A stretch of DNA of 64,000 nucleotides, from the NCBI GenBank assembly GCA_028289645.1, contig JANQOK010000020.1:106562-170561 (forward strand), in the 5' to 3' direction. The notes under the pieces are model-generated. The model was not told the DNA's origin. It was given only the letters and a program-made list of their open reading frames with translations, and did no database searches. Every line of letters begins with the position of its first letter. Position 1 is the stretch's first letter. The position numbers were made by a program, and so were the translations under genes. This DNA comes from Anderseniella sp. (GTDB taxonomy: Bacteria > Pseudomonadota > Alphaproteobacteria > Rhizobiales > Aestuariivirgaceae). Of this stretch, positions 7,985 to 41,359 are shown piece after piece.

Positions 7985-9436
7985 TCAGATCACCGGGCGT
8001 GCCAGAAATGCCGGCATGTTTTCCTCGGTAAATCTGGAAGGTGTGTCGTCGTGGTCATTGTCCCGGCCCTTGCCGCCCCGGCCACGTCCTCTGCTGCCGC
8101 GTTCACGTTGCGGTTTTTCATCTGACTGCCGTTTGGTCGGCTTGGCATCAGCGCTGGTTGTTTCAAGCTTTTCGGCGACTTCAGCCTTTTCTTCAGCTTT
8201 CTTCGGTTTGGCTTTCTTGACCGCAGCCCTGGACTTCGGTCCGGCTGTCCTGCTGCCGCGCCGGCGTTTCCCCTTGGCGGCGATGGACTCTGCGATCTCA
8301 TCGTCGGTAGGCGCTTCACCGTCCCAGCCGATGGACTTCTTGATCAGGTCCTCAATGTCCTTGAACACCCGGAACTCTTCCCACTTGACCAGCGTGTAGG
8401 CGTTGCCCAACCGGCCAGCCCGGCCGGTACGCCCGATACGGTGAACATAATCTTCAGAATGGGTTGGAACGTCATAGTTATAGACATGACTTACGTCCGG
8501 AATGTCGAGGCCGCGCGCGGCCACGTCGGAGGCGATCAGATAGGTGATGTCGTTGTTGCGGAAGGCGTCCAGCGTTTTCAGGCGGGCACGCTGATCCATG
8601 TCGCCATGCAGAGCGCCGCAGGAAAAACCGTGCTTCTGCAGGGATTTTTCAAGCACTGCGACTGTCGTCTTGCGGTTGGCAAAGATGATGGCGTTCTTGA
8701 CGTCGTCCGCATGTCCGCGCATCAGCTCGCGCAGCGCGTCGCGCTTGGAGGTTTCGTCAGATGGCGCGTAGACCGCGCGCTGGGTGATGGTCTCGGCGGT
8801 GGACGACAGCGCCTGTGCCTTGATTTCAACCGGGTTGTGCAGGAACTGGTTGGTCAGGCGCTGGATTTCCGGTGGCATGGTGGCGGAGAAGAACAGTGTC
8901 TGCCGGGTGATCGGCAACAGTTTGGCGACCCGCTCGATATCCGGAATAAAGCCCATGTCGAGCATGCGGTCGGCTTCGTCGACAACAAAAATCTCGATAT
9001 GGGTGAGCATCAGCTTGCCGCGTTCCACATGATCGAGCAGCCGGCCCGGGGTTGCGATCACGACATCGGCGCCACGGTCGATCTTGCGGTTCTGCTCCTC
9101 GAACGAAACCCCGCCCATGAGCAGTGCGATGTTGAGCTTGTGGTTCTTGCCCAGCAGCTCAAACGCCTCGTGCACCTGCGCGGCCAGCTCCCGGGTCGGT
9201 TCCAGGATAAGCGTGCGCGGCATGCGCGCCCGGGCGCGGCCCTTCTCGAGAATGTTGAGCATCGGCAGGGTAAAGGCGGCTGTCTTGCCGGAGCCGGTCT
9301 GGGCGAGGCCCAGGACATCCTTGCGTTCAAGCGCGGGAGGAATGGCTTCCGCCTGGATTTTCGTTGCTTCGGAAAAGCCGGCGTCGGTGACGGCGGCGAG
9401 GACCTTTTCGCTAAGGCCAAGTGTATCGAATGACAT
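7985..9436 (-). CDS. rhlE: DEAD-box ATP-dependent RNA helicase, RhlE type
   Basis: A 483-residue RNA helicase. Domain 1 has the Q motif (TKIQAEAIPP), Walker A AQTGSGKT (45-52), PTRELA, GG, TPGRLLDH, DEAD (153-156) and SAT (184-186). Domain 2 carries FANRKTTVAVLEKSL, DVAARGLDIPDV and the arginine finger in HRIGRTGRAG. Residues after ~385 form a basic, Lys/Arg/Glu-rich tail ending in RGRGRGGKGRDN, which probably binds RNA. It likely remodels ribosomal or cold-stress RNA structure. The gene is monocistronic. Confidence 0.93.
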   Translation of the reverse strand: MSFDTLGLSEKVLAAVTDAGFSEATKIQAEAIPPALERKDVLGLAQTGSGKTAAFTLPMLNILEKGRARARMPRTLILEPTRELAAQVHEAFELLGKNHKLNIALLMGGVSFEEQNRKIDRGADVVIATPGRLLDHVERGKLMLTHIEIFVVDEADRMLDMGFIPDIERVAKLLPITRQTLFFSATMPPEIQRLTNQFLHNPVEIKAQALSSTAETITQRAVYAPSDETSKRDALRELMRGHADDVKNAIIFANRKTTVAVLEKSLQKHGFSCGALHGDMDQRARLKTLDAFRNNDITYLIASDVAARGLDIPDVSHVYNYDVPTHSEDYVHRIGRTGRAGRLGNAYTLVKWEEFRVFKDIEDLIKKSIGWDGEAPTDDEIAESIAAKGKRRRGSRTAGPKSRAAVKKAKPKKAEEKAEVAEKLETTSADAKPTKRQSDEKPQRERGSRGRGRGGKGRDNDHDDTPSRFTEENMPAFLARPVI

Positions 9437-9600
9437 TAAGGTGTATGGACCGTTCTATGTGCGCTGCACCGATGCAGGGAGATTTCTCGCCACATCTCAT
9501 GGAGCTGGTTGATGTGCCGGGAGCAGACCGGATGTCTGCATCCTCTTTGACGGCACCTCAAGCCTGGCGCCGAAACGTATGGGCTTTGTATGGGGATTCG

Positions 9601-9624
9601 CGGCCAAAATGTCAATTTTGGCCG
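9601..9624. repeat. Perfect 10-bp inverted repeat downstream of the proC-like gene
   Basis: CGGCCAAAAT and its exact complement are separated by GTCA. It lies 21 bases past the stop of the minus-strand reductase gene and 165 bases upstream of the rhlE start. It lacks a long T-run, so it is either a weak terminator for the reductase transcript or an operator for rhlE. The rest of 9437-9644 shows no gene. Confidence 0.5.
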
Positions 9625-9644
9625 TTGCGGCAATTTGAACGGGG

Positions 9645-10403
9645 TTAATTGGTTCTCAACAGGGCATCGGCTGCCCGTTTCCACGGCGTGAAGGCATCTG
9701 CCTCGTGCAACACCTCCAGACCTTTGAGGGTGAACGAGCGCGGGGTCGCCAGTTCAGATACCAGTTGCGAAGTTGGCGTGGAGGGCCGCTCGCGCACCGT
9801 GGTGGCCGCAGCCCGGGTCATCTGGGCGGTGAGCAGACGGGCGATTTCAGGATCCACACCCTGTGCCGCAACCCAATCCGACATCTGCGATATCAGCTCC
9901 TGCACCCAGCCGTAGTAGCATGCGATTGTCGCGGCCGGGGCAAAGCTGTCTTCAGACTTCAAGGCCAGCACCGGGCCGCAGGACTCCAGCAGCTTCCGGC
10001 ACGCCCGGTGTTCAGGATACATCAGCGTTGGACTTTCGCTGAACTGGGCGGCAACCACCGGCATGGCCATGACCAGGCTGGCCGGCGCGATGGCCGGTGC
10101 CAGGTCCGACGACGGCAGGCCGGCACACAGGCTCAGGACCGTCTGGCCATCGGAAAAGCTGAGCCCCTCGCAAACCTCAACGGCATCGAACGGGCGCACC
10201 GCGACAATGACGATCTCCGATTGATCGATGATCGATTGGTTGTCTGCCAGTACTTCGACACCGTAGCGTTCCGCCAGGTGCGCCGAAGTTTCGCGGCCAC
10301 GCTCCGAAACCAGAAAGCGGGAACCGGTTTTGCTCATTGCGGGCATCATGTGCTTGATGAGATGGCCGGCACCGATAATACCAATGGTCATGGTCATGGT
10401 CAT
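9645..10403 (-). CDS. ProC-like NAD(P)-dependent reductase (P5C reductase fold)
   Basis: A 252-residue protein with an N-terminal Rossmann fold (IGIIGAGHLIKHM near residues 7-19) and the layout of pyrroline-5-carboxylate reductases: IVIVAVRPFDAVEV, then SLCAGLPSSDL and a helical C-terminal dimerisation region ending TPWKRAADAL. The usual proline-synthesis signature (TPxSxGxTxxAL) is degenerate here (PSTPTSQLVSELATP). It may therefore reduce another cyclic or secondary imine. Its ATG overlaps the stop of the upstream B12-domain gene (ATGA), so the two are translationally coupled and probably act in one pathway. Confidence 0.72.
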   Translation of the reverse strand: MTMTMTIGIIGAGHLIKHMMPAMSKTGSRFLVSERGRETSAHLAERYGVEVLADNQSIIDQSEIVIVAVRPFDAVEVCEGLSFSDGQTVLSLCAGLPSSDLAPAIAPASLVMAMPVVAAQFSESPTLMYPEHRACRKLLESCGPVLALKSEDSFAPAATIACYYGWVQELISQMSDWVAAQGVDPEIARLLTAQMTRAAATTVRERPSTPTSQLVSELATPRSFTLKGLEVLHEADAFTPWKRAADALLRTN

Positions 10404-12118
10404 TTTGTTTCCTTTAAAGCTTTCAGTAGGGCGGGGACCGCATCTTCGATTTCACGGCAGACAAGTGCGCCGGATGCGGTCAGTTGGTCACCGACATCCA
10501 CCGGCAATGATGTATTGGAGCTGTCCGGCACCTGATTGAGGCGGCCGCCGATCAGGATCGGGATCTGTTTGCCAACATGCTCACGCAACGCGTTGTAATA
10601 GCTCATGGCTACGCCGTTGTATGTCGACAGTGCGATGGCATCCGCATTTTCGTCCATGGCGGTCGCCGCCAGTGCCCGGGGCTCGGTGGATGTGCCGCCG
10701 TCGATCAGCGTCGCGCCGGCGCCGGACAAGACCTCGTCCAGCACCAACTTGCCGTGTTCATGCACGTCCGTTGTTGCGGTGACAATGCGCACATTGAGGT
10801 TGGCCAGAGCCTGGCGGTCAGCCACCGGCACCCGCGATAGATGAACTTCGGCCATTTCGGCAACTTCCTCGGCAATGTCAGACGGGATCTTGTCGCTGCC
10901 GGTTGCGCACATCGCCTCCAGGCGCCGGTCGCCGAGGCGGCGGATGGCCAGCAACATCTCGAATGGATTGTCCGTATCGATGCCTGCTGAGGCAAGACGC
11001 CGGATGGCATTGTCGAAGAACAGTCTGCCGCCGGCGACGATGCGGTTGGCCAGTGCGCGGGCAGGGGTCTCGTCCAGCAACGTCATGTGCCGGTGCTGAT
11101 GTTCAGCCAGGCGCGCCGCAAACAGTTGCGCCTCGATCACCTCTTCAACGTCCGGGATGCGCTGGTTTTCGGTGACCGGCACCGGATTGATGGCGTGTCC
11201 GGTCGGCTTCAGCAATTGTCCGGCTATGTCGATGGAAAGGTAGGATGACAGGCTGGCGAAATTCTCCTGCGGCGTTCCGCGGTAGCTCGTCGTGTTGCCA
11301 TAGACCATCGTGCCGGGTGTGTCCGACACGTCAGACAAGGCGAGATGGAAGGCGAGGCGCCGGACAGGATCGGAGAAGTGATGCCCCCAGCAATGGCTGA
11401 TCTCGACACCGGCAAGTTTGCCGATATGCCGTTCCAGCAGCACCGCACCCATTGCGCTCGACAGGTCGCCGAACAGTGCGGCAAATCCGTCATCGAGGTT
11501 CGAGTGCACCAGTATGGGCACCGGCTGGGCTGAAATCAGCGCCAGCGCTGCAAGCGTCGCCGTCGTGCAGGTCACGTCATCAGAATGGTTCTGCAGGCGG
11601 AAGGTGAAGTACTGTCCGAGATTGCCGATGCTGGTGGCGCCGGCAGCCAGTGCCGCACAGGTGTTTTCCACCGACGCCGGAAACCCGAGCACAAAATCTC
11701 CGAAATGCGGCGCAACCGGAGCGGCCTCGGTTAATCTGGCAAAATCCTCCGGCGCATTCAGGATCAGGCCGGTGCCGCGCATGGCGCGCTTGCGATCATC
11801 GCGCGGAATGCCCATCGACCAGTCGAGACAGATGCCGTACCGGTCTATGCTGACACATCGGGCAGCGCACCGGTCATGGATCTCCGCCCAGGCATCACCG
11901 GACTTTGCCGGATCGCGCCAGCCGATCTGGGCATGTTGCATCAGCTTGCCGTCGGCGGCCATGGCGCGCTTGTGCGCGGCCTCACATGCAACGCCATGAT
12001 GTTTCAGAAACGCACCGGGCTGAACCTGCCAGTCTTGTGCCAGGGCATGGCCCCGCGCAATCAGTTCCCGGGCATCCGGAAGCTCAGGCTCTGGCAGTAT
12101 GTCCGTGCGGCTCAGCAT
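10400..12118 (-). CDS. Cobalamin-binding-domain protein, putative B12-dependent mutase
   Basis: A 572-residue protein. The C-terminal ~130 residues look like a B12-binding Rossmann domain: NVRIVTATTDVHEHGKLVL contains DxHxxG (451-456), the lower-ligand histidine motif of base-off cobalamin enzymes, followed by ALSTYNG (496-502) and PILIGGRLN (520-528). Residues ~100-400 alternate strands and helices (GFPASVENTCAALAAG, FTFRLQNHSDDVTCTT, PVPILVHSNLDD), consistent with a mutase TIM barrel. The order barrel-then-B12 resembles a fused glutamate-mutase-type enzyme, but I cannot assign a known substrate. It is coupled to the ProC-like reductase and divergent from oxyR. Confidence 0.6.
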   Translation of the reverse strand: MLSRTDILPEPELPDARELIARGHALAQDWQVQPGAFLKHHGVACEAAHKRAMAADGKLMQHAQIGWRDPAKSGDAWAEIHDRCAARCVSIDRYGICLDWSMGIPRDDRKRAMRGTGLILNAPEDFARLTEAAPVAPHFGDFVLGFPASVENTCAALAAGATSIGNLGQYFTFRLQNHSDDVTCTTATLAALALISAQPVPILVHSNLDDGFAALFGDLSSAMGAVLLERHIGKLAGVEISHCWGHHFSDPVRRLAFHLALSDVSDTPGTMVYGNTTSYRGTPQENFASLSSYLSIDIAGQLLKPTGHAINPVPVTENQRIPDVEEVIEAQLFAARLAEHQHRHMTLLDETPARALANRIVAGGRLFFDNAIRRLASAGIDTDNPFEMLLAIRRLGDRRLEAMCATGSDKIPSDIAEEVAEMAEVHLSRVPVADRQALANLNVRIVTATTDVHEHGKLVLDEVLSGAGATLIDGGTSTEPRALAATAMDENADAIALSTYNGVAMSYYNALREHVGKQIPILIGGRLNQVPDSSNTSLPVDVGDQLTASGALVCREIEDAVPALLKALKETK

Positions 12119-12600
12119 AGCTAACGGTTAGTGCCTGGCAGATCAAGAAGCAAGCGTCTGTGCCGGCTCGGTCTGCCACTGAACAAGACTCTGCAGTCCA
12201 CAGTAAAAGGGCGCCCGGCCTAGCAATCGAAGGTGCTGGTACCGACAGCGCTGTTGCCTGCCGGTGATCAGAGAGGTATGGCCCATTCACTCGGGACCGG
12301 CACGTGGCTGAGGTGTTGCGGCCACATGGCGGGTGCGGATGCCAAGGTCTACGAACTCAAACAAGTGCGATCCAACACTATGCCGGTGAACCCCGGACAC
12401 TGGTGACCAGGGATGGCATCGAGGCCATGATCAAGGTGCAGGGTCTTGACTGGCACGGTATTCTGCCCGGCGCCCATGGGAGAGACGTCTGGCGTTGTTG
12501 CAAGTGGTTGTGTCGGCGCATTAGTCAGAACATGTGTCTGACAATTATAACTCAAAATTTAGTTGTGAAGCGATGTTCATAAGTTATTATTATCTGAGTT
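12119..12600. promoter_or_regulatory. Divergent intergenic region between the B12-domain gene and oxyR
   Basis: 482 bases with no convincing gene. Next to the minus-strand start is an 11-base palindrome, CTAACGGTTAG (12121-12131). At the other end, ATAACTCA (12547-12554) and TGAGTTAT (12595-12602) form a perfect inverted repeat with centres 48 bases apart, the second half overlapping the oxyR ATG. A long-spaced A/T-rich pair of half-sites is what an OxyR/LysR tetramer needs, so autoregulation is plausible. The last 60 bases are clearly AT-richer than the rest. No B12 riboswitch could be recognised. Confidence 0.5.
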
Positions 12601-13491
12601 ATGACCACCCTTCGTCAGCTCAGATACCTGGAAGCCATTGCCCGGCATAGCCACTTCGGCAAGGCCGCGCAGGAGTGCTCGGTGTCGCAACCGGCGCTGT
12701 CACAGCAGATCAAGGAACTGGAACAGCGTTGGGGTCTGGCGCTGCTTGAAAGGTCGCCGAAACATGTCACTCTTACCGCGGAAGGTGTTGAGGCTGTAGA
12801 GCGGGCCAGGGCCATTCTGACCGCTGTTTCCGATCTGGAAGATTTTGCCCGCGAGCGTACCGGCACGCTCAGCGGCGTGTTGCGTCTCGGTGCCATTCCT
12901 TCCATCGCGCCTTATCTGCTGCCGGCCATGCTGACCCGGCTGGCGGATCACTATGCCGATGTCGACCTGCGCCTGCGTGAAACTGTCACCGAGACATTGG
13001 TCGATGAACTGAAGGCGGGTAAGCTGGATGTCATTGTGGCTGCGTTGCCGCTGGGGTCGCCGGAGATTGAGGTGCGCGAGCTGTTCGTCGACAAGTTTCT
13101 TCTCGCCGTACAGGACAACGACCGGCTGCAGCCCGATGTTGCGGCAACACCGTCCATGATCGGAGAGGACCGCCTGTTGCTGATGGGCGAGGGGCATTGC
13201 CTGCGCGAGCAGGTGTTGAACTATTGCAATATCGGTACGTCGAAACTGTCCCGGGCCATGGGGGCGTCTTCGTTGAGCACCATCGTGCAGATGGTGGCCA
13301 ACGGTCATGGCGTGACCTTGTTGCCGGAAATGTGCATTCGCGAACAGGCGCCCGACAGCCGCATCCGGTTGCTGCGCTTTGCCGACCCGGAGCCGGCGCG
13401 GACGGTTGCCATGGCATGGCGCAAGTCAACGCCGTTGCGTGACGATTACATGGCGCTGTCGCAACTGATGCTGGATGGCTGGAATGCGTGA
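12601..13491 (+). CDS. oxyR: Hydrogen-peroxide sensor OxyR (LysR family)
   Basis: A 296-residue LysR-type regulator. The N-terminal winged HTH reads LRYLEAIARHSHFGKAAQEC and VSQPALSQQIKELE. The effector domain contains GHCLREQVLNYC with Cys200 and Cys209, the same 9-residue spacing as Cys199/Cys208 that form the peroxide-sensing disulfide in E. coli OxyR. The flanking LLLMGEGHC and GVTLLPEM also match OxyR. No catalase or peroxidase gene is adjacent in this window. The neighbours are a B12-domain/reductase pair (divergent) and an overlapping hydrolase. Confidence 0.9.
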   Translation: MTTLRQLRYLEAIARHSHFGKAAQECSVSQPALSQQIKELEQRWGLALLERSPKHVTLTAEGVEAVERARAILTAVSDLEDFARERTGTLSGVLRLGAIPSIAPYLLPAMLTRLADHYADVDLRLRETVTETLVDELKAGKLDVIVAALPLGSPEIEVRELFVDKFLLAVQDNDRLQPDVAATPSMIGEDRLLLMGEGHCLREQVLNYCNIGTSKLSRAMGASSLSTIVQMVANGHGVTLLPEMCIREQAPDSRIRLLRFADPEPARTVAMAWRKSTPLRDDYMALSQLMLDGWNA

Positions 13492-14179
13492 GCCGCTGCT
13501 GCTGATACCCGGGCTTATGTGCACATCTGACCTTTTCAAACCGCAGATAGCGGCGTTCTCCGGCGACCGCCAGGTTGTTGTTGCCGATCACACCGGTGCA
13601 GACGACATGCGTTCGATTGCGGAACAGATACTGTCGAATGCGCCTGAGCGGTTTGCGCTGGCGGGCCTGTCGATGGGGGTGTATCTGGCACTGGAAATCA
13701 TGTCCGTCGCTCCGCAGCGGGTAGCACGTCTGGCGCTGCTGGACGGCAAGGCCAGGCTCGATACCACTGAGGAACTGGCGGCACGCCGTGCATTGCTGAA
13801 AATGGCAGACGACGGACACTATCTGAACATCACCCTTGACGTCCTGCTGACCAGGCTGGTAGCCGGAAGCAGAGCGCTGGAACCAGACTTGCGCGACACG
13901 ATAGTCAAGATGGCAACTTACACCGGTGTGGCGGTGTTCAGGCGCCAGATGGCGGCCATCATCAACCGTCCGGACTACCTGCCGAGGTTGCAGGACATAT
14001 CATGCCAGACACTCGTCCTGACAGGCTGTGAAGACGTCATCACGCCGCCTGAATATGCCCGTGAACTGGCGGACCGAATTTCTGACGCCAGGCTCGAACT
14101 GATTGCCGGAAGTGGCCATCTGGCCACTCTTGAGGCCCCAGATGCCGTTAATGCCGCCCTGCGGCAATGGTTGGGCTGA
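13475..14179 (+). CDS. Alpha/beta hydrolase
   Basis: A 234-residue serine hydrolase of the alpha/beta fold. The nucleophile elbow GLSMG places Ser66; the acid is probably the Asp in TGCEDVITPPEYA and the base the His in AGSGHLATLEAPD. There is no signal peptide or cap-domain insertion of note. The start overlaps the end of oxyR by 17 bases, so it is co-transcribed with it. An in-frame ATG three codons on (13484) is an alternative start. The substrate is unknown. Confidence 0.85.
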   Translation: MAGMREPLLLIPGLMCTSDLFKPQIAAFSGDRQVVVADHTGADDMRSIAEQILSNAPERFALAGLSMGVYLALEIMSVAPQRVARLALLDGKARLDTTEELAARRALLKMADDGHYLNITLDVLLTRLVAGSRALEPDLRDTIVKMATYTGVAVFRRQMAAIINRPDYLPRLQDISCQTLVLTGCEDVITPPEYARELADRISDARLELIAGSGHLATLEAPDAVNAALRQWLG

Positions 14180-14271
14180 AACGTAAGTGATGCTGACGTT
14201 ATTCGTGATTTGACGGACACCTTGTCCGTGTGCACCATATTCTCATCCGCTAAGCAAGGAGGTCTACAAAA

Positions 14272-14301
14272 ATGACTCCGCCAAAGCATCCGTTGCTGTG
14301 A
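14272..14301 (+). CDS. Possible nine-residue leader peptide
   Basis: ATG...TGA encodes MTPPKHPLL. It is preceded by AAGGAGG with 8 bases of spacing, close to the ideal ribosome binding site and stronger than those of most genes in the window. It contains Pro-Pro and ends before a run of RNA hairpins and a terminator-like stem, the arrangement of a translational leader or attenuator. No structural gene follows directly. A chance match cannot be excluded. Confidence 0.3.
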   Translation: MTPPKHPLL

Positions 14302-14450
14302 TCAGTTGACAGGGACGAAGCGCGTGCGCCTGGACCTTGCATACTGGTTTCAGCCAATCCGACATATTAACATCTTAGATTTTCGGGCACTTGTGCCCGT
14401 GTTATGAAAAGCCTGGTCTCGTGACCGGGTAAAGGCAAACAAGCCACGAT

Positions 14451-14488
14451 GCCCCGCGCGGTTAAAGGTTCCCGCGGGGCTGTCCTTT
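14451..14488 (+). terminator. Terminator-like hairpin in the leader/RNA region
   Basis: GCCCCGCG (14451-14458) pairs exactly with CGCGGGGC (14473-14480) across a 14-base loop, followed by TGTCCTTT. It follows two smaller stem-loops (CGGGCA/TGCCCG near 14375 and CCTGGTC/GACCGGG near 14412). Together they look like the 3' end of a short structured transcript that begins after the hydrolase gene. Confidence 0.5.
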
Positions 14489-14538
14489 GCAGTGCGCAGT
14501 ATACTGAGTTGCCGTACCTGGGAATCGGGCGGTTGTTG

Positions 14539-32290: not shown

Positions 32291-35200
32291 CTAGGTAAAG
32301 ATGAACACATCATCCGGATTGGGCAGGGTGGTGAGATCCACGCCAGCCACGGTGACCTGGTCAGTACCGTTGAAGTCGACAACGGTATCGGTGCCGTTGA
32401 AGTTGAAGCCGGTAAAGCCAGTGTTTGATGCAAAGCCATAAGCCGAGACATCGATACGGTCAGCGTCGGCAACGCTGAAGTCTGTGATGGTGTCTGTTCC
32501 GTCACCGGCGGCAAACACGAAGGTGTCGGCGCCTGCGAGACCGGTGAGCGTGTCATTGCCGCCGAGCCCAATGATCAGGTCATCACCGGTAGTGCCGGAG
32601 GCGGTGTCGGCAAGGGCCGTGGTCCCAATTGTGGCTACCGCACCGATTGTCTCATAGTCCCAGCTGGAGCCGTCGGCGAACTCGATGGTCTCGATACCCC
32701 AATGGGCGGTCGAGTAGAAATGCCACTTGTCGGTGATGACCTGCCCGGTTGTCACGTCAGTAATGAAAAGGTCATTGACCGACTTGGACAACTGCACGTC
32801 TGCGGCATTGAGATCGGTGAAGCGCAAAACGTCGCCAACAGCGTAAACACCCTCATCAATGGTGTCATCGCCATCGCCGGACGAGTAGATGTAGACGTCA
32901 TCGCCGGCCTTGCCCTTCAACGTGTCATTGCCGGCCTGGCCATCCAGGGTGTCAGCTGATGTGCTTCCGGTGAGCGTTTCATTGGCCGCGGTTCCCCGTA
33001 TCCAGGCATGTTCACTGATCTGGGCGTAGTCCCAGCTGGAGCCGTCTGCGAACTCGATGGTTTCAACGCCCCAGTATGGCGTTGAGTAGAAATGCCATAG
33101 GTCGGTGATGGTTTGGCCTGTCGTCAAATCCTTGATGAGCAGATCATTGCCGGACTTTGACAGCTGCACGTCTGCGGCATTGAGATCGGTGAAGCGCAGG
33201 ACATCGCCAAGCGCGTAGATGTCATCGTCGATGGTGTCGTTGCCGTCTCCCGATGCATAAAGATAAACGTCGGCGCCTGCCTTGCCGTTCAGAGTGTCGT
33301 CGCCTGCCAGGCCGTTGATGACATCGTCGCCGGTTGATCCGGAAATGATGTCCACTCCCGTCGTACCAAGATGGGTGACGGCAGAGCTGCTGGCCACGGC
33401 GTCAATCAGGTCCTGCTTGGTCCATACGGTTGTGGTGCCGCCACTGACAAATTCGTAATAGTCGATGGTCTGGAACACACCGCTGGCCATTGCATTCAGC
33501 AGGGTAATCTTGTCGCTGGTGCCGGCGAAAGTCAGCTCGACGTCGTTGCCGCCGATGCCGGTGGCGATGACATCTTCGACCAGATAGCCGTTGATGATGA
33601 GGCGATCGTCGTTGCTCAGGCCGTCTCCATTGTCGGCGATGGTGTCGTGCCCATCACCCAGGTTGAAGATGAATGTGTCATCGCCCTTGCCGCCGTCGAT
33701 GGTGTCATTGCCCAGTCCACCGGTGATGATGTCATCGATATCAGAACCGGTGATAGTGTCATCGCCAGAGGTGGACTGTGCCGCCATAACCGCGGCGCCG
33801 AGGTCTGTGGTGTCCCATGTGACGCCTTCGTCGACAAACTCGATCAGGTTTATGCCCCTGAAGGACGGACTGGTGACAAGCGCGTCAATTAGCGAAATCC
33901 TGTCACCTGTTCCCGTGAACACCAGGTCAATCTGGCTCATGCCGCTCACGATCTCAATTGTCGTCTGGGCACGCGTATAACCGCTGATCTTCAGGATATC
34001 GCTCGTGTCCAGGCCGTTGCCGTTATCATCGATGGTGTCATGCCCGTCGCCTGCGCTGTACAGGTAGGTGTCATTGCCCGTGCCGCCGTCGATGGTGTCA
34101 TTGCCAAGCCCGCCGGAAATGATGTCATTGACGTCCGATCCGGTGATCATGTCGTCGCCCGGGGTGGACTGCGCCGCCATGACCGCAGCGCTGAGGTCTG
34201 CGCTGTTCCATGTCACACCTTCATCGACAAACTCGATCAGGTTGATGCCTCTCAAGGAGGCAAAGGAGTCGAGCGGGTTGATCAGTGATATCCGGTCGCC
34301 GTCGAGCGTGAACACCAGGTCGATCTGGTTCATGCCGTCGACAATCTCGATGGTGGTTTGTGCGCTCGTGTATCCGCTGATCTTCAGGATATCGCTGGTA
34401 TCCAGGCCGTCACCCTGGTCATGGATGGTATCGTGTCCGTCACCGATCGTGTAAAAGAAGACATCGTCACCTTTACCTCCATTCAGGAAGTCATCGCCGA
34501 TGTCACCGGATATGGTGTCATCGCCCCCATGGCCATGGATGCTGTCATTGCCGACCCCGCCCGAGATCACGTCGGCGGTGTCGAAACCCTGCAGGTCATC
34601 GTCACCGGCGGTCACTTCCTGCAGCAGGATCTGGGCCGCCAGATCGGTCGGGGTCCACAGCGTGCCGTCTGCTGTAAACTCATAGGTTTCGATCTGGTTC
34701 AGGTATGAGCCCGTCAGCGCCTTTACCAGCGTGATGCTGTCAGTCGAACCGGCAAATGTCAGCAGGATGTTCTCCGTACCTGCCACCCTTTGCACAATGG
34801 TCTGGCTGCTCAGGTAATCGGAGATGATCAGCCTGTCCGCCCAGTCGAGGCCGTTGCCGGTATCGGTGATGGTGTCCTGGCCATCACCTTGTCCGAAACG
34901 ATAGGTGTCGTTGTGGGTGCCGCCTTCCAGCCGGTCATTGCCGGCGCCGCCACTGATGTCATCCTCGCCGCTTCCGGCGTCAATGTCATCGTCGCCTGCA
35001 CCGCCATCAATGACGTCACCGACGCCCGATCCGGTTATCTGGTCATCGCCTGACGTTGCCTGGGCAGTGACCACCAGAGCGCTGAGATCCGCAGTGGTCC
35101 AGATCACCCCTTCATCGACAAACTCGATCAGGTTGATGCCTCGGAAAGAAGCCGTTGAGTCGAGTGGATTGATCAGCGAAATCCGGTCGCCTGAACCGGT

Positions 35201-38200
35201 GAACACAAGGTCAATCTGATTCAGCCCGTCTATGACCTCTATGGTCGTCTGAGCTCTTGTATACCCGGTGATCTGCAACAGGTCGTCGGTATCCAGGCCA
35301 TTGCCGATGTCCTGAATGGTGTCATGACCGTCACCGGCGCTGTACAGGTAAGTGTCGGTGCCGGCCCCGCCATCCAGGAAGTCGTCGCCCAGGCCGCCTG
35401 ACAGGGTGTCGGCAGCGCCTTCACCCCAGATCAGATCGTTTCCGCCGAGGCCGTTGACCACGCCGGTTCCGATGATAACGTCAGCGCCTTCTGTGACCTG
35501 ACCATCGACCAGGCTTTGCGCGATGCTTACCGGCGTCCAGGTCGCATCGAGGAACTCATAGGTTTCGATCGCGCTCTCAGCTTGTCCGCTGAGCGCATTG
35601 ATGACGGTGATCTGGTCCGTCGATCCGGCAAACGTCAAAACAATGTTGTTGGTTCCGGCCGGCCGGGCAACGCTGACATCGGCCACATTGTAGCCGATAA
35701 TCAGCTTGTCGGCGCTGTCAAGGCCGGAGCCGGTGTCCTGAATCGTGTCGATGCCGTCGCCGGGGTTGAAGATGTAGGTGTCGTTGCCCCAGCCGCCGTC
35801 GGACGTGTCGTCACCGGTGCCGCCGGTAATCGTGTCATGGCCGCCACGGCCAAAGATGGTGTCATTGCCGGCACCTGCATCAATAATGTCGCTCCAGGCG
35901 CCGAAGTCGCTGTCGATACCGTTGATGGTGTCATCGCCGGCAGTCTGCTGCTGTGTGACCAGGGCCGTCATTATCGCGTCCCAGCCGATCGTCTCGACGA
36001 CCTGTCCCTGGGCGTCGGTAAACTCAAGCGTTTCGATGCGGTCGGTCCAGTTGATGCCGAAGATATGGCTGTCGTAACCGGCCAGCTGGTTGACCAGTGT
36101 GATGGTCGAGCCGTCCGTCAGGCTGAGCAGCACATCATTGTCGCTCGGTCCGTAACTGAAGCTGACATCGCTCGACGTGATGCCGGCGCCGAATTGCAGA
36201 ATGTCCTCTGACGGTGTGAAGATATCATGCTGATTGTCTTCGATAATGTCGTTGCCGTCGCCGAGATTGTAGACATAGGTGTCGCTGTCATCGCCACCGG
36301 ACAGGTGGTCGTTGCCTTCATTGCCGACAATCGTGTCGGCGCGGTGATCGCCGATCAGGCTGTTGTCACCCGCATCACCGACGGTGACGATATCGAGGAT
36401 GTCTTCCCAGGTCAGTACTGTGCCGTCGCCAAAGACGAACTGCTCGACCCGGTCAAACCAGGCGATGTCGAACAGGCTGAACAGGTCGATCCGCTGGCCG
36501 TCAAACTGATTGACAATTCGCATGGTGTCGGATGCCCCGGCAACAGCCGGGTCATCGTCTATCGAGATCAGCAGGTCCCGGGTGCCGTCGACGACGCTGA
36601 ATGTGACGTCAGCCACAGTAATGCCATCCCCGAAAAGCAGATAATCGTCGCCGGCCAGCCCTTCGGTACCCGGCAGGATATTGAAGTTGATCTCCTGGAA
36701 AATCTGGTTGTCTTCGATCGTGTCATGGCCGGATCCGAACCCGAACTCGTAGACATCTCCGCTGTCGCCGCCTGACAGCCAGTCGTCACCGGCGCTGGCG
36801 CCGAACAAGTCCGACGTACCGAAGCCGTAGGTGATGTCGTTGCCGTCCGTTGTATAGGTTTCGATCACCCGTTGCTGCACGTCGACCCAGTTGATTGGCG
36901 CATCCTGGTTTGAGGCAAACGCCTCAATGCGCTGGTCGACGGCATATTCATTGTCGTATCCCAGGTGGGAATAGGTAAACTGGCCGAGCAGTGTCAGTGA
37001 ATCGTTTTCCGCACCCGATGTTGAGAACGTGATGGACAGGTCGTTGCTGTCTGCGACGCGAGTGAACATCATATCGTCAAGCGACAGTCCGTCGGTGACC
37101 ACCAGCAGGTCTTGGCGGTCGTTGAACGGATCAAGCATCTTATCTTCGATGATGTCATGGCCGCTGCCGAGGCCGAACACATACATGTCGCCGCCGTCGC
37201 CGCCGCGCAGGGTATCGTTGCCGGTGCCGCCATTGAGTTGGTCGTCGAACCCCGTGCCGTCGAGTATGTCATCTTGGCCATCCAGGCCGCGGCCGACGGC
37301 CTCGCCGATTTCCACGGCCTCGAAGATGCTGCCGTCGGCAAACTGGATATCTTCAATGCCCCAGTTTGCCGAAGCCTGCCGGCCGGACTGGGCAAACACT
37401 GGCGTGTCGTACTGGTTCTGCACCGTAATGGTTTCACCAGTGGCATTGACCGTCACCACTAGGTCGACGCCGTTGCGCGCAATGGTCACGTCTTCTGGAT
37501 TGAGATCGACCAGCCGCAGCCGGTCCCCCCAAGGTGTGGAGCCGGGCTCGGCATCAATGATGGTGTCGTGGCCGATGCTGCCCTGTTCGAAGATATAGGC
37601 ATCCTGGCCGTTGCCGCCAGTGAAAGTCTCATCCGCCGACGTGCCCACGTAAACATGCGTGCCGCCATCTTCGGTACGGCTGAAGGCGCCATCCAGGTAG
37701 ATGTTGTCATAGCCAAGCCCGCTGACCAGTTCTGCCAGGGTCAGGGTATCAGCGCTGTCATGGGCGCGCGCCAACTGGCCAATGATGAAGTCGGTGCGCA
37801 TGTCGATGCCGTCATTGCGTTCCATGATGGAGATGGCGGCAGCCAAGGCAGGGGCGTAGTTGTCCTGCCAATCTGTCAGCGCCAGCGTGGCATCGACGGG
37901 CAGGGCTGTGAAAAAGCTGGAAAAGGTGTCAGCGAGCGCATTGCTGTTGTCGGCCTCGAAGATGTCCTGGTCCAGGTTATAGGTGATGCCGGTCAGGTGG
38001 CTGGCGTATTGGGCCTGGAATAGTAGCCGCGCGGTTTGAGTGGCGACAGCTTCGTCCCACACTGCCTGCAATTCCGCAACATTGGTGTCCAGCACGTCGC
38101 CACTGATCTCGTCGCGCGGCGCCAAGTCCATGTCGGCAGCCGTCTCCAAGTACGCCAGCTTGCGAAGGTCAAACCCTTCGGTGCCCAGAGCGGTGGCAGG

Positions 38201-41200
38201 TTCAGCCGAGACACCGGCCCATTCATACAGGATCGCTTGCACGTCCGCCTGATAGGTCTGCCAGTCAAGCGTGCCGGCAAGCTGGGTGAAATCGCTCACC
38301 TGCGTCAACAGGGTAGCGTTCAGCGACATTTCGCTGCGCAGATCTTTTATGTTGCCGAACCCGCGAATGGAGGGCAGCGCGGCAGCGGTAGCGGAGATGG
38401 TGACATCACCGAGATACTTGCTGTCCACCTGGCTGGCGTCGAACCAGACGTCACCGGCTATGGATGTGCTGCCATCAGAAAAGCTGACATCTGCCACTTC
38501 GCGGATTTCATTGCCACCGGACAGGGCCACGTCGGGCGCACGGCCGGTCAGCGAGATTTCAATTATACCGTGCGTTGCCAGGTCGTTCAGTTCACCGGCA
38601 TCCGTTACACCGTTCTGGTTGAGATCCTGCCAGATCAACAAGTCGCTGAACTGTGCATCGAGTGCATTAATGACCCCGTCACTATTGCTGTCATAAGCCG
38701 CTAGGGCCGTCAGGCCGGATGTTTCTGCATCACCAAACAGTTCGCCAATATCATTGATCTGGTCATCACTGTTGAGATCGATGGCCAGCAGTCCGTCGTC
38801 TTCACGCACCCAGCCGGTGCGCTCGCCGAACCCGTCGGCGTCCAGATCGAAATACACCTCGCGCTGGTTCTGCCGGGTCAGGTCGAGCCCGTCCTTGTCT
38901 AGGTCGATGACGAGCGGGTCAAAGTTGTCAAGCGTTATACCGAATCCCTGCTGCAGGGCCAACGTGACAAACTTCTTGAATTCTGACAATGCGACTGAAA
39001 CGGCTTCGACATAGTCGACGACAACAATTGTGATGCCCGCGGTACCGAGGCCGTTGTCCATGTTCATCTGGTAATCTTTGACGCCGACAAACCCACCCAA
39101 GCCTTGGCCCAACTGGGCGACCAGATATCCGTCTTCGCTCAAGCCATAGCGCATCCAGCTCATGAATTTCACATCAAGAGCAAACAGCGACCACGTGTCG
39201 ATGAAATTGCCGGCAATCGTGGGAGTACCCATCAGTATTGCTGAGAATGGTTGCCAGTACGCATATCCAGTTTCCTGCCAAGGAAACTGAACGCCACCGG
39301 TCAGCGATAGCGAGCCAAAGTCGGCGGTTTCCTGGTCAGTTGCATCTTCCACCCGGGCATTTGAGCCAAGTTCGAAATGGTCGATACCGGCACCGCCGTA
39401 TACTTCGTTGACCCCGCCAGATGTGTAGATAGTGTCGTTGTCATCACCGCCGTTAACGATCGCCCGGACTTTGCCGACATGAAGGTTGTCGTTCCCACCG
39501 CCACCGTCAATTTCGATCGTGGCCCCTGCATCGTCTGTTGTTTCAATAGCTATCCAGTCAGCGAACTCGGAACCTCGTACATTCTCAAAGTCAACGAACT
39601 CTGCCTCAGCATCCTGGAAACCCTTGCCTTCTTTGATGACTGAAGTGGTCGTAATTCCGATGCGGGTGTATGCTTCAATGATGGACGGATCGAAAGAGCC
39701 GAACTTCTGGTACTTGTTTGCGCTACCGCCTGGCCCGAAGTAGATGCTTTTCTGGGAATCCGCGAAATCTATGAAATCTGCACCGGCGTCAGTTCCGAGG
39801 AAACTCTCTACCGAGGAGACGAGGTCGACGCCGACATTGACGTCTCCCTCCACGCGATAGTTCGTTGTACCAAGTTCTATTGTGTCGGGATCGTTGTCTG
39901 CAAGAATGGTGACAGTTACCGGTGAAGAAGACTCGGAGTAATCCGCCGTGTCGAAACCACTATTACCCCTGATCTTATCATCTCCAGTTCCTCCGTTCAG
40001 GTAGTCATTGTCTCCACCGCCGAAGAGGTTGTCTGCTCCGCCGCCACCCCAGATATGATCATCACCGTCACCGCCGGCTAGGCTGCTATCACCATCTGAT
40101 GCTCCGCCCTGGTGCAGGTTGTCGGCATCACCATCTCCGTAGATGTGATCGTCTCCATCTCCGCCTTTGACATCATCCGATCCTAAACCGGCATATAGAT
40201 GATCTGCGCCGCCACCACCTTGTATGTAGTCATTGCCTTCCCAGCCTAGAATGTGATCATCACCTGAACCTTGAGACTCACTTTGAAAATCACCAAAAAG
40301 AAAATCATCTCCATTGGAGCCGCTTAATTCATCGCTACCATCGGCACCTACCGCGTAGTATTGTTCAGGTCCATTTCCCAATCCGCGGCCATTGTAGTTT
40401 AAAAAGCCAAGCGACGTATCGTCCCCGATACCAACCTGTAATCCACCCGTCGATGCTGCTGACTGGCCAGGAACTCCAAGCTTGTCGGCTCGCACCATCA
40501 AATCAGTTGTGCCGTTGCTGACTGGCATTTTGATCGCAAGCTGGGAATTCGCTGCAATGGCGATTAGACCATTGACGTTGAGGCCAGACGAAAAGGCGTC
40601 CACAACTATGGCGTTATTTGTTGTCGTATTGCCGTGAGCATCAATCGCCCAATCCCAACTGGCGGATACTCCCGTGGTTGTCTGAGTTGGTCTGGCAATG
40701 ATCTCCAGAACGTTCTCTTGCAACAATGCGTATGTTGTTGTTGCGCCATTATCCGGGGTTACTTCTACAGTCATCCCGACCTGAGGTGTGTCAATCCCGT
40801 TTGGTTCAGCCGCCTTGGTCAATAGGTCAGCAATTGCTGCGTTAATCTCGGCATCACTCAAGGTGGCCTCATACAGTGCGCCACCTTTAATCTCGGTTCC
40901 GCTTATCAGCTGAAATTCAAAAGAACTTGGCAAAAATGGATCAATAACAGTGGACTCGAAAATCTCTGAATAGGCCTCAGTCAACTGCCCGCCGACAATA
41001 GCTACTCCGGCCCAGAGAACCACACTGCCTGCAGTTATCGGCAACGCCAATGGTCCGAAGGTCGCTGCTAGCGCTCCGGCAATTGCAGCACTAATTGCTA
41101 CGCTGCTCATTGTGGTGGTGAAAATCTGAACACCGTTTAGGAAGTACGCTCCACTATTTTCAGTGAATTCAAAGATCTCTTCAAATACGCCAACAGTTGT

Positions 41201-41359
41201 TGATGGACCAAATATCCCTAGGAGTTTCCATGCACCTTTGAGTTCTTTACCATCCAGATAATTTTGCGTTAGCTCGTCGGCTACCGTCTCGTGTATGTCA
41301 TCCACAAGGCCGCGAATATTACTTTCATTTGCTGGATTTCCGACATAGTATTGCGGCAT
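32291..41359 (-). CDS. Giant RTX-type Ca2+-binding protein (3022 residues)
   Basis: One uninterrupted 9.07-kb frame with GGGGAGGAG before its ATG. Residues ~84-126 are a hydrophobic Ala/Gly-rich segment. Residues ~340-470 are tandem GGxGxDxLxG nonapeptide repeats that fold as a Ca2+ beta-roll. Residues ~813-923 hold EF-hand/dockerin-like loops (VIDLDKDGLDL, YFDLDADGFGER, AIDLNSDDQIND, AYDSNSDGVINA, WQDLNQNGVTDA). From ~1350 to the end are about a dozen modules of ~95-140 residues, each made of RTX nonapeptides plus DTIxDxGxGLDxxDxLxIxGY and IxxxEFxDG elements. It ends NPDDVFIFT, a type I secretion-type C-terminus. It is likely a secreted adhesin or surface-layer-like protein, but no ABC/HlyD/TolC secretion genes or acyltransferase are next to it. 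The first ~2 kb of the gene is AT-richer than the rest. Confidence 0.88.
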   Translation of the reverse strand: MPQYYVGNPANESNIRGLVDDIHETVADELTQNYLDGKELKGAWKLLGIFGPSTTVGVFEEIFEFTENSGAYFLNGVQIFTTTMSSVAISAAIAGALAATFGPLALPITAGSVVLWAGVAIVGGQLTEAYSEIFESTVIDPFLPSSFEFQLISGTEIKGGALYEATLSDAEINAAIADLLTKAAEPNGIDTPQVGMTVEVTPDNGATTTYALLQENVLEIIARPTQTTTGVSASWDWAIDAHGNTTTNNAIVVDAFSSGLNVNGLIAIAANSQLAIKMPVSNGTTDLMVRADKLGVPGQSAASTGGLQVGIGDDTSLGFLNYNGRGLGNGPEQYYAVGADGSDELSGSNGDDFLFGDFQSESQGSGDDHILGWEGNDYIQGGGGADHLYAGLGSDDVKGGDGDDHIYGDGDADNLHQGGASDGDSSLAGGDGDDHIWGGGGADNLFGGGDNDYLNGGTGDDKIRGNSGFDTADYSESSSPVTVTILADNDPDTIELGTTNYRVEGDVNVGVDLVSSVESFLGTDAGADFIDFADSQKSIYFGPGGSANKYQKFGSFDPSIIEAYTRIGITTTSVIKEGKGFQDAEAEFVDFENVRGSEFADWIAIETTDDAGATIEIDGGGGNDNLHVGKVRAIVNGGDDNDTIYTSGGVNEVYGGAGIDHFELGSNARVEDATDQETADFGSLSLTGGVQFPWQETGYAYWQPFSAILMGTPTIAGNFIDTWSLFALDVKFMSWMRYGLSEDGYLVAQLGQGLGGFVGVKDYQMNMDNGLGTAGITIVVVDYVEAVSVALSEFKKFVTLALQQGFGITLDNFDPLVIDLDKDGLDLTRQNQREVYFDLDADGFGERTGWVREDDGLLAIDLNSDDQINDIGELFGDAETSGLTALAAYDSNSDGVINALDAQFSDLLIWQDLNQNGVTDAGELNDLATHGIIEISLTGRAPDVALSGGNEIREVADVSFSDGSTSIAGDVWFDASQVDSKYLGDVTISATAAALPSIRGFGNIKDLRSEMSLNATLLTQVSDFTQLAGTLDWQTYQADVQAILYEWAGVSAEPATALGTEGFDLRKLAYLETAADMDLAPRDEISGDVLDTNVAELQAVWDEAVATQTARLLFQAQYASHLTGITYNLDQDIFEADNSNALADTFSSFFTALPVDATLALTDWQDNYAPALAAAISIMERNDGIDMRTDFIIGQLARAHDSADTLTLAELVSGLGYDNIYLDGAFSRTEDGGTHVYVGTSADETFTGGNGQDAYIFEQGSIGHDTIIDAEPGSTPWGDRLRLVDLNPEDVTIARNGVDLVVTVNATGETITVQNQYDTPVFAQSGRQASANWGIEDIQFADGSIFEAVEIGEAVGRGLDGQDDILDGTGFDDQLNGGTGNDTLRGGDGGDMYVFGLGSGHDIIEDKMLDPFNDRQDLLVVTDGLSLDDMMFTRVADSNDLSITFSTSGAENDSLTLLGQFTYSHLGYDNEYAVDQRIEAFASNQDAPINWVDVQQRVIETYTTDGNDITYGFGTSDLFGASAGDDWLSGGDSGDVYEFGFGSGHDTIEDNQIFQEINFNILPGTEGLAGDDYLLFGDGITVADVTFSVVDGTRDLLISIDDDPAVAGASDTMRIVNQFDGQRIDLFSLFDIAWFDRVEQFVFGDGTVLTWEDILDIVTVGDAGDNSLIGDHRADTIVGNEGNDHLSGGDDSDTYVYNLGDGNDIIEDNQHDIFTPSEDILQFGAGITSSDVSFSYGPSDNDVLLSLTDGSTITLVNQLAGYDSHIFGINWTDRIETLEFTDAQGQVVETIGWDAIMTALVTQQQTAGDDTINGIDSDFGAWSDIIDAGAGNDTIFGRGGHDTITGGTGDDTSDGGWGNDTYIFNPGDGIDTIQDTGSGLDSADKLIIGYNVADVSVARPAGTNNIVLTFAGSTDQITVINALSGQAESAIETYEFLDATWTPVSIAQSLVDGQVTEGADVIIGTGVVNGLGGNDLIWGEGAADTLSGGLGDDFLDGGAGTDTYLYSAGDGHDTIQDIGNGLDTDDLLQITGYTRAQTTIEVIDGLNQIDLVFTGSGDRISLINPLDSTASFRGINLIEFVDEGVIWTTADLSALVVTAQATSGDDQITGSGVGDVIDGGAGDDDIDAGSGEDDISGGAGNDRLEGGTHNDTYRFGQGDGQDTITDTGNGLDWADRLIISDYLSSQTIVQRVAGTENILLTFAGSTDSITLVKALTGSYLNQIETYEFTADGTLWTPTDLAAQILLQEVTAGDDDLQGFDTADVISGGVGNDSIHGHGGDDTISGDIGDDFLNGGKGDDVFFYTIGDGHDTIHDQGDGLDTSDILKISGYTSAQTTIEIVDGMNQIDLVFTLDGDRISLINPLDSFASLRGINLIEFVDEGVTWNSADLSAAVMAAQSTPGDDMITGSDVNDIISGGLGNDTIDGGTGNDTYLYSAGDGHDTIDDNGNGLDTSDILKISGYTRAQTTIEIVSGMSQIDLVFTGTGDRISLIDALVTSPSFRGINLIEFVDEGVTWDTTDLGAAVMAAQSTSGDDTITGSDIDDIITGGLGNDTIDGGKGDDTFIFNLGDGHDTIADNGDGLSNDDRLIINGYLVEDVIATGIGGNDVELTFAGTSDKITLLNAMASGVFQTIDYYEFVSGGTTTVWTKQDLIDAVASSSAVTHLGTTGVDIISGSTGDDVINGLAGDDTLNGKAGADVYLYASGDGNDTIDDDIYALGDVLRFTDLNAADVQLSKSGNDLLIKDLTTGQTITDLWHFYSTPYWGVETIEFADGSSWDYAQISEHAWIRGTAANETLTGSTSADTLDGQAGNDTLKGKAGDDVYIYSSGDGDDTIDEGVYAVGDVLRFTDLNAADVQLSKSVNDLFITDVTTGQVITDKWHFYSTAHWGIETIEFADGSSWDYETIGAVATIGTTALADTASGTTGDDLIIGLGGNDTLTGLAGADTFVFAAGDGTDTITDFSVADADRIDVSAYGFASNTGFTGFNFNGTDTVVDFNGTDQVTVAGVDLTTLPNPDDVFIFT
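32656..33200 (-). repeat. Recent 372-bp module duplication inside the RTX gene
   Basis: The two last full modules are offset by exactly 372 bases (124 codons). A 35-base identical stretch occurs at 32792-32826 and 33164-33198, and another near-identical stretch at about 32656 and 33028. The shared protein segment is GDVLRFTDLNAADVQLSKS followed by an aromatic WHFYST block. High DNA identity points to a recent duplication or gene conversion. Confidence 0.8.
33837..35300 (-). repeat. Second family of near-identical RTX modules
   Basis: A module containing DxLxIxGYTxAQTTIE, QIDLVFTGxGDRISLI and RGINLIEFVDEGVxW occurs near 33830, 34220 and 35120. The first two are about 393 bases (131 codons) apart and share CCGCTGATCTTCAGGATATC at 33981 and 34374. 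The modules alternate with a related type (QxVxGTxNIxLTFAGSxDxI), giving an A-B mosaic. Confidence 0.75.

Follow-up and report, generated by a model that had tools for sequence, protein, structure and literature searches.

An apparently undescribed family of putative single-chain, PLP-free AdoCbl mutases coupled to a P5C reductase-like partner

A window of 64,000 nucleotides from the genome of an Anderseniella species contains two overlapping genes that appear to represent an undescribed family of single-chain, PLP-free AdoCbl mutases, coupled to a reductase resembling P5C reductase (P5CR). The pairing of the mutase-like and reductase-like genes is real, and the identification of the larger protein as a B12 mutase is likely. 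No description of the pair or of the family was found in the open-licence literature of PubMed Central, and the annotated records consulted name the mutase family 'cobalamin-dependent protein', hypothetical, or nothing at all.

The gene pair and its distribution

Both genes lie on the reverse strand. The first (10400..12118; 572 residues) encodes a protein with a C-terminal B12-binding domain and a predicted barrel, while the second (9645..10403; 252 residues) encodes a protein with a Rossmann domain and a P5CR dimerisation domain. The TGA of the mutase-like gene occupies positions 10400-10402 and the ATG of the reductase-like gene positions 10401-10403, such that the sequence ATGA (10400..10403, reverse strand) is common to both; the original prediction of a 572-residue reading frame joined in this manner to a P5CR-like one is therefore borne out.

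Conserved pairing of the two genes, which that prediction had regarded as a sign of a new enzyme, was found across genomes. A scan with six peptide patterns located at least 66 mutase loci (locus counts were made by HMM scan of six frames), of which 11 were not evaluable for adjacency, six having fewer than 900 bases downstream and five lacking a full mutase. The reductase lies immediately downstream of the mutase in 43 of the 55 evaluable loci and is missing from its expected place in the other 12; the four-nucleotide overlap is found in 33 of 45 adjacent pairs. A reductase cluster of 46 loci includes both the window and locus L048, where the candidate partner is a ProC that the tree places, on long branches, with true ProC, and which was left uncounted. 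Among 100 related genomes, the reductase type was present in 17 of the 18 that carry the mutase versus 5 of the 82 that do not (Fisher's p 6.7e-14, uncorrected for kinship); in one of these genomes, G005, what matches the mutase is a piece 43 residues long at the edge of a contig. Of 30 reductase loci fetched from a class sample, 18 have no mutase within 1.5 kb, and the reductase model, having been built from mutase-coupled reductases, favours these among its top matches. The mutase-coupled members do not form one clade in the reductase tree, which requires 10 label changes.

The B12-binding domain and the predicted barrel

Residues 443-527 of the mutase-like protein (10538..10792, reverse strand) match the B12-binding family PF02310 marginally above its Pfam cut-off (32.4 versus 32.1 bits; E 8.9e-8), and the same family was matched in all 60 aligned relatives at E<=1. 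The DxHxxG cobalamin motif claimed for the C-terminal part of the chain is intact (D451-x-H453-x-x-G-K457; 10748..10768, reverse strand): D451 and H453 are found in all 85 copies with letters at those positions, and G456 in 81 of the 85. The family thus combines the DxHxxG motif with PF02310, the two marks by which base-off (His-on) B12 binding was judged. The best NCBIfam match of the domain is methylaspartate mutase S, at 26 bits far below the cut-off of 110. At E<=1, eighteen further Pfam families were matched, each by 1 to 4 of the 60 members and at best with E 0.0026; these weak matches, among them OKR_DC_1_N in four members, were treated as chance or as look-alikes of the B12 domain.

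The preceding part of the chain, residues 1 to about 430 (10829..12118, reverse strand), matched no Pfam family, and comparison of the barrel with Pfam, NCBIfam and PDB profiles recognised no known family from its sequence. The AlphaFold model of the 572-residue protein is confident (pLDDT 92.9) and predicts a TIM-type barrel joined to the B12 domain, which would place the protein in the fold class of the glutamate mutase-like AdoCbl mutases. Among solved structures, Foldseek ranks AdoCbl mutases at the head of the matches to this model, with E 1.4e-13 and TMq up to 0.53 for methylmalonyl-CoA mutase, E 1.1e-8 for ornithine aminomutase, and E 2.1e-8 with TM 0.49/0.56 for the E-chain of glutamate mutase (1cb7_B); lysine aminomutase stands further down (E 3.5e-6). 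The original proposal of a B12-mutase type of enzyme is thereby supported, with a barrel that the profiles do not recognise but whose predicted fold resembles AdoCbl mutases. Neither of the findings that it named as refuting was obtained: the searches turned up no characterised B12 enzyme matching along the whole sequence, and the cobalamin motif is intact.

Comparison of the family with these enzymes indicates both kinship and distance. Like methylmalonyl-CoA mutase, which gives the best Foldseek E-values, the chain appears to run from a barrel to a C-terminal B12 domain; however, its barrel spans about 430 residues versus the 512 positions of PF01642, that family matches none of the 60 members, and profile comparison of the barrel with methylmalonyl-CoA mutase returned nothing (P 0.49). 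Three PF01642 matches are located elsewhere in the same genome. Glutamate mutase (GlmE/MutE with GlmS/MutS) shares the predicted barrel fold and, as in the present family, lacks a PLP lysine, but its family PF06368 is unmatched in all 60 members at E<=1 (among 19 Pfam families that were matched); furthermore, the barrel here comes first and the B12 domain last in a single chain, and a P5CR-like reductase adjoins.

A further apparent likeness to glutamate mutase resides in the motif E317-N-Q-R-I-P322 (11153..11170, reverse strand), which hhalign aligned, as a weak match (P=0.01), with the glutamate mutase motif E330-A-I-G-I-P. A control comparison of glutamate mutase with methylmalonyl-CoA mutase gave a P of 0.009, on par with that value, and an alignment of the full-length family (alignment A1) with glutamate mutase brought only the B12 domains into register. 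Alignment A1 omits seven of the 66 loci: L039 and L066 contain ambiguous bases, L083 has internal stops, and L079, L084, L085 and L086 are partial. E317, R320 and P322 are each present in 85 of 85 copies, and many polar residues of the putative barrel, E317 included, are conserved in 97% or more of the copies compared (85-87). Passages of PMC3958899 describe Glu330 of glutamate mutase as contacting the ribose of AdoCbl; the passages of PMC9545868 that were consulted do not name Glu330, Lys326, Arg66 or Arg100.

The reductase-like partner

The reductase-like protein exceeds the Pfam cut-offs for P5CR_dimer and F420_oxidored, and its predicted fold resembles that of solved P5C reductases (TM about 0.86; 22% identity to the best of them), so that both its Rossmann and dimerisation domains and its predicted P5CR fold assign it to the P5C reductase superfamily. 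It resembles ProC in these respects, but differs in scoring below the proC cut-offs: against the NCBIfam equivalog TIGR00112 it reaches 94.3 bits where 196.75 are needed, and its best NCBIfam model, PRK06476, gives 117.4 bits versus 254. The same genome carries a separate proC above the NCBIfam cut-off (241 bits, C5:422833). A plain P5C reductase was rejected as the identity of the partner on both of these grounds. The degenerate proline signature initially claimed for the gene is also apparent, in that the SGSGPAY region and what we take to be the proline signature of P5C reductases are both altered relative to the genome's own ProC.

Neighbouring genes and regulation

The gene that diverges from the pair (12601..13491, forward strand) encodes an OxyR-like LysR regulator, with 235 bits versus a cut-off of 329 and two cysteines nine residues apart. 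The original description of an oxyR beside the pair holds for the adjacency of an OxyR-like gene, but not for a link to a peroxide regulator: in two loci of the same genus (L021 and L022), where a LysR gene is listed near the pair, a TPP-enzyme gene and further genes intervene. A functional connection to OxyR was rejected on the basis of this unconserved linkage, and the neighbour is incidental. Control by a B12 riboswitch was likewise rejected, none being found in positions 8000-14500 of the window (E<=0.5) or in eight other loci (at the gathering score); the sole weak Rfam match, IRES_Bip (19 bits versus a gathering score of 40), was taken as chance.

Neighbouring genes differ greatly among lineages. 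By family they include 5-oxoprolinase PxpA, ArgE-type deacetylase and hydroxyproline-dehydratase-like proteins, and further gamma-glutamylcyclotransferase-like proteins and an aspartate-dehydrogenase-like protein; those lacking a Pfam or NCBIfam call were named by phmmer similarity to tested proteins or by reading of their sequence. These neighbours suggest a substrate class of glutamate-, ornithine- or proline-type amino acids.

The nature of the reaction

The ornithine 4,5- and lysine 5,6-aminomutases resemble the family in combining a barrel with a base-off B12 domain, and figure among its fold matches, but differ from it in their PLP lysine. According to passages of PMC3958899, this residue lies 11 positions beyond the B12 histidine in both enzymes (His133/Lys144 and His618/Lys629). 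At the equivalent position here, 464, lysine occurs in none of 85 copies (leucine in 61, phenylalanine in 14, methionine in 8, glycine and valine in 1 each), and an aminomutase of that type was rejected on this ground. Because this lysine is missing, the amino-group shift that the original prediction had entertained is disfavoured in its known, PLP-dependent form.

An AdoCbl-dependent 1,2-aminomutase that dispenses with the classical PLP lysine, the same amino shift being performed elsewhere by a HemL-like PLP enzyme, is an improbable alternative. A HemL-family enzyme occupies the mutase's usual place in three loci (L147, L148 and L155), with a four-base overlap with the reductase in two, and their reductases form one clade (100/99) among the mutase-coupled ones, deeper forks being open. 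This replacement leaves some room for amino-group chemistry. However, both known B12 aminomutases require PLP, and the three loci come from ten regions chosen for carrying the reductase with no adjacent mutase, rather than from a random sample. HemL-like proteins also include other transaminases (GntE, and beta-amino-acid transaminases), such that replacement need not mean the same reaction.

Somewhat less probable still is a corrinoid methyltransferase, in which the barrel would bind a methyl donor or acceptor (a pterin, or a methylated amine or betaine), the fused B12 domain would shuttle the methyl group, and the P5CR-like enzyme would handle the imino acid left by demethylation (of proline betaine, for instance). 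The B12 domain by itself does match methionine synthase, first in the search of PDB profiles, and fragments of that enzyme recur among the matches to the predicted fold (9cbr, E 5e-7, TMq 0.27; 9cbq, TMq 0.30), where they out-rank lysine aminomutase by E-value. Moreover, some relatives of the reductase located away from the mutase adjoin proteins of the proline racemase family, D-amino-acid-oxidase-like proteins and presumably old-yellow-enzyme-like ones (the last named from the sequence), which would fit the breakdown of amino acids that are N-methylated or of the proline type. Nevertheless, the full-length predicted fold favours the mutases (TMq up to 0.53, and 0.49) over the methionine synthase fragments (at most 0.30), the Pfam matches of the 60 members, spread over 19 families, include neither a pterin-binding nor an MTTB family, and no reason is known for a methyltransferase to keep a ribose-binding Glu motif. 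B12 domains occur in sensors too, and the mutase-like protein has no known substrate, but a degenerate or regulatory (light- or cobalamin-sensing), non-catalytic protein that controls the reductase is very improbable given the conservation of the polar barrel residues, the lack of any Pfam DNA-binding domain in the window protein, and the retention of nearly all of those conserved residues in five diverged tandem copies in one lineage.

The preferred account, to which roughly even chances are assigned, is that of an AdoCbl radical mutase of a new family with an imine-reducing, P5CR-like partner. A glutamate-mutase-like barrel and a base-off B12 domain would be fused in one chain, with H453 carrying the cobalamin where the barrel faces the Rossmann domain. 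A 5'-deoxyadenosyl radical, held partly by E317, would abstract a hydrogen from the substrate, presumably an amino or imino acid that is small, anionic and of the glutamate, ornithine or proline type, and a group would then shift from one carbon to the adjacent one with no involvement of PLP. An imine would be present in the product or arise by its cyclisation, and the P5CR-like enzyme would reduce it with NAD(P)H; alternatively, this enzyme may act as an amine dehydrogenase in a catabolic operon. We infer AdoCbl rather than methylcobalamin chemistry, and likewise the substrate class, the direction of the reaction and the imine step.

Significance

Few AdoCbl mutase reactions are known, and new ones are rare. 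Taken jointly, the observations may, at slightly below even odds, reflect a new reaction in which an AdoCbl mutase acts on an amino or imino acid and is served by a dedicated imine reductase, in an unrecognised pathway patchily widespread in Alpha- and Gammaproteobacteria, for which a HemL-like PLP enzyme would substitute in some genomes and in which the five tandem paralogues of one lineage would share one reductase. The family is borne by many environmental proteobacteria, among them the culturable Pacificispira spongiicola KN72 (L047) and Sinorhizobium sp. RAC02 (L100), and its partner, co-translated at most loci, offers a direct handle on the product, so that a focused screen could address the substrate. 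The reaction would, if confirmed, constitute an additional B12-dependent step in amino-acid metabolism and a new cause of B12 demand in these bacteria.

A recurrent pairing of a B12-domain protein with a reductase

The two genes of the pair lie on the reverse strand, where that for the 572-residue B12 mutase-like protein (the mutase; 10400-12118) and that for its 252-residue P5C-reductase (P5CR)-like partner (the reductase; 9645-10403) have four bases, ATGA, in common. The host genome measures 4.8 Mb, and the closest named relative found, an uncultured Anderseniella bin, has a copy with 84% identity (locus L021). Also on the reverse strand, a 3022-residue ORF with many GGxGxD-type repeats (32291-41359) appears to encode a large, secreted repeat protein that binds calcium.

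Scanning 84,980 species, each represented by one genome, returned 66 mutase loci, a lower bound. Fifty-five of these hold a complete mutase gene followed by 900 bases or more of sequence, and in 43 of the 55 the reductase is the next gene on the same strand; the four-base stop/start overlap is seen in 33 of 45 adjacent pairs. The remaining 12 loci lack a reductase in that position, although among them L030 carries one some 300 bases further on and L052 carries one upstream. Among 100 related genomes, the mutase was found in 18, the reductase type in 22 (E<=1e-35) and both in 17; the sole mutase genome lacking the reductase type (G014) is represented by an assembly that is 82% complete. Mutase genomes that were searched separately contained the reductase type in 12 of 12 cases, at a site away from the mutase in G012, G063 and G077. 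The reductase type is also found alone, which counts against a strict bond with the mutase: it occurs in 24 of 385 genomes of a class sample, and when 30 reductase loci from that sample were fetched, 12 (all best-scoring) had a mutase within 1.5 kb and 18 did not. Four small alphaproteobacterial genomes (1.2-1.3 Mb; L174, L176, L177 and L178) each carry a P5CR-like paralogue of the reductase type, and in none of them does a mutase lie within 1.5 kb. The reductase of L037, whose record is titled Mesoflavibacter, has nearly the same sequence as that of G830, which belongs to the same class as the window; the Mesoflavibacter title may be misassigned.

The spread of the mutase is patchy, extending to 4 of 398 genomes in a phylum sample (the window's own among them) and to 9 of 72,556 plasmid records. 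In two metagenome bins the gene forms tandem arrays of diverged paralogues: five copies in a row followed by one reductase in L056 (653-9601), the fourth copy being split between frames in the assembly, and at least four in L057 (1391-8400), where the contig ends early. The order of copies is conserved between the bins, and because counterparts of copies 1 to 4 share 87-93% identity, against 50-71% within an array, the array seems, from these sequences, to predate the divergence of the two genomes.

Predicted fold and conserved residues of the mutase

An AlphaFold model of the mutase, built from a 60-row alignment of its relatives (mean pLDDT 92.9, pTM 0.92), was compared with the PDB using Foldseek. 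Methylmalonyl-CoA mutase ranked first (E 1.4e-13), followed by ornithine 4,5-aminomutase (E 1.1e-8), glutamate mutase chain E (E 2.1e-8, TM 0.49/0.56, rmsd 5.6), methionine synthase fragments (E 5e-7 and 8.6e-7, TMq 0.27 and 0.30) and lysine 5,6-aminomutase (E 3.5e-6, TMq 0.42). The multi-domain matches have high rmsd values (about 13 to 29 A), as differing domain settings would give, and the glutamate mutase barrel is therefore the cleanest comparison. A profile of the mutase barrel matched a ten-sequence glutamate mutase profile weakly and in one place (probability 4%, P 0.01), with TENQRIP opposite the EA-x-x-IP motif. Counting from printed coordinates, that motif's glutamate is residue 330 of the Clostridium enzyme, and Glu330 is reported as an adenosyl ribose contact whose ornithine aminomutase counterpart is Glu338 (PMC3958899). 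With the same set-up, glutamate mutase against methylmalonyl-CoA mutase gave P 0.009, and the present barrel against methylmalonyl-CoA mutase gave P 0.49; a placement with the AdoCbl mutases is thus plausible, resting mainly on the predicted fold. A rival reading is that the protein is a corrinoid methyltransferase.

A second rival is an aminomutase that works free of PLP. Both known B12 aminomutases place their PLP lysine 11 residues past the cobalamin histidine (His133/Lys144 and His618/Lys629; PMC3958899), whereas lysine occupies that position in 0 of 85 mutase copies (L in 61, F in 14, M in 8, G in 1 and V in 1). Across the family, only two columns exceed 70% lysine, K50 (86 of 86) and K457 (83 of 85). 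These counts were drawn from 87 full or partial copies in the collected loci and follow the numbering of the 572-residue protein, the alignment and model beginning at residue 2.

At E<=1, Pfam recognizes a single domain in the window's mutase, the B12-binding one (residues 443-527), which barely exceeds its cut-off and was found in 60 of 60 aligned relatives. Weak matches to 18 further families, none better than E 0.0026, were seen in one to four relatives per family; the profiles of glutamate mutase E (PF06368) and methylmalonyl-CoA mutase (PF01642) drew no match from any of the 60 at E<=1. Two plasmid records with PGAP-style names label the gene product 'cobalamin-dependent protein', and another labels it hypothetical. 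A third rival is a non-catalytic B12 protein. The cobalamin motif residues D451 and H453 are present in all 85 copies with letters there, and in the barrel R93 (86 of 86), R109 and H62 (85 of 86 each) and E317, R320 and P322 (85 of 85 each) are kept. The tandem copies retain nearly all of the invariant residues.

The reductase and a possible alternative upstream enzyme

The reductase is predicted to adopt a P5CR fold (pLDDT 95.8), its best solved match being 2ahr_D (E 3.1e-17, TM 0.87/0.85, 22% identity). Its scores against the NCBIfam proC-type models that it matches all stay under the respective cut-offs. The genome has a ProC of its own, encoded elsewhere, away from the pair, and the SGSGPAY stretch of that protein is replaced in the reductase.

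Ten regions were fetched for having a reductase without an adjacent mutase, and in three of them a HemL-family PLP enzyme directly precedes the reductase (L147:8315-10392, L148:1-1823 and L155:8432-10558), with a four-base overlap in L147 and L148. These enzymes score 298-388 bits against the hemL model, under its cut-off of 527. The mutase was not seen in the genomes of L147 and L148 (G038 and G050); in that of L155 (G095) a mutase accompanied by its own reductase lies at another site. A 90-reductase tree, on which the mutase label changes 10 times, joins the three reductases in one clade (100/99) that sits among mutase-coupled reductases, at forks of moderate support. A different starred clade, with 23 members, contains all 10 reductases labelled as lying next to hydroxyproline-type genes, along with five mutase-associated reductases (L096, L052, L030, L031 and L036). 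The arrangement is consistent with two different enzymes, the mutase and the HemL-like protein, feeding the same reductase step.

Neighbouring genes and a proposed reaction

In many loci, the window among them, no obvious further operon partner was seen. A PhyH-type dioxygenase gene occurs within the fetched flanks of 13 loci and in 10 of these adjoins the mutase gene, either upstream of it or divergent from it; in G077 (L153) it is joined to the reductase alone. Other neighbours include an ArgE-like deacetylase above its cut-off (L046), the 5-oxoprolinase subunit PxpA after the reductase (L050, and L055 alike by sequence), gamma-glutamylcyclotransferase-like proteins (L065, L069), an amidase (L044) and trans-3-hydroxyproline-dehydratase-like proteins under cut-off (L052, L096). 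Several Rhizobiales, and G012 from the family to which the window belongs, have the mutase in larger clusters (L097:8184-24743, with Liv transporters; L139:213-11177, together with L152; L143:411-14827; L098-L100; L075). In varying combinations, these encode an FAD_binding_2 oxidoreductase, a cupin, an aspartate-dehydrogenase-like protein, an alpha/beta hydrolase, pyruvate-dehydrogenase-like E1 subunits, a 3-hydroxyacyl-CoA-dehydrogenase-like protein, a GntR regulator and a branched-chain amino acid ABC transporter. For a protein of about 286 residues encoded in these clusters (L098:13848-14708 and L097:18207-19064), one member matched nothing and the other gave only a cyclophilin-like hit under threshold.

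The component parts of the system are of known kinds; as far as titles and the starts of abstracts show, neither the barrel family nor its partner is described in the papers that searches of open-licence PubMed Central listed. In the reaction that we propose: (i) AdoCbl would undergo homolysis in the mutase barrel; (ii) an anionic substrate, an amino or imino acid, would lose a hydrogen; (iii) a 1,2-migration would follow; and (iv) the product would be, or become, an imine that the reductase may reduce, or may form when acting in reverse. Judged by the neighbours of the mutase loci, the substrate may be a small amino or imino acid resembling glutamate, ornithine or proline.
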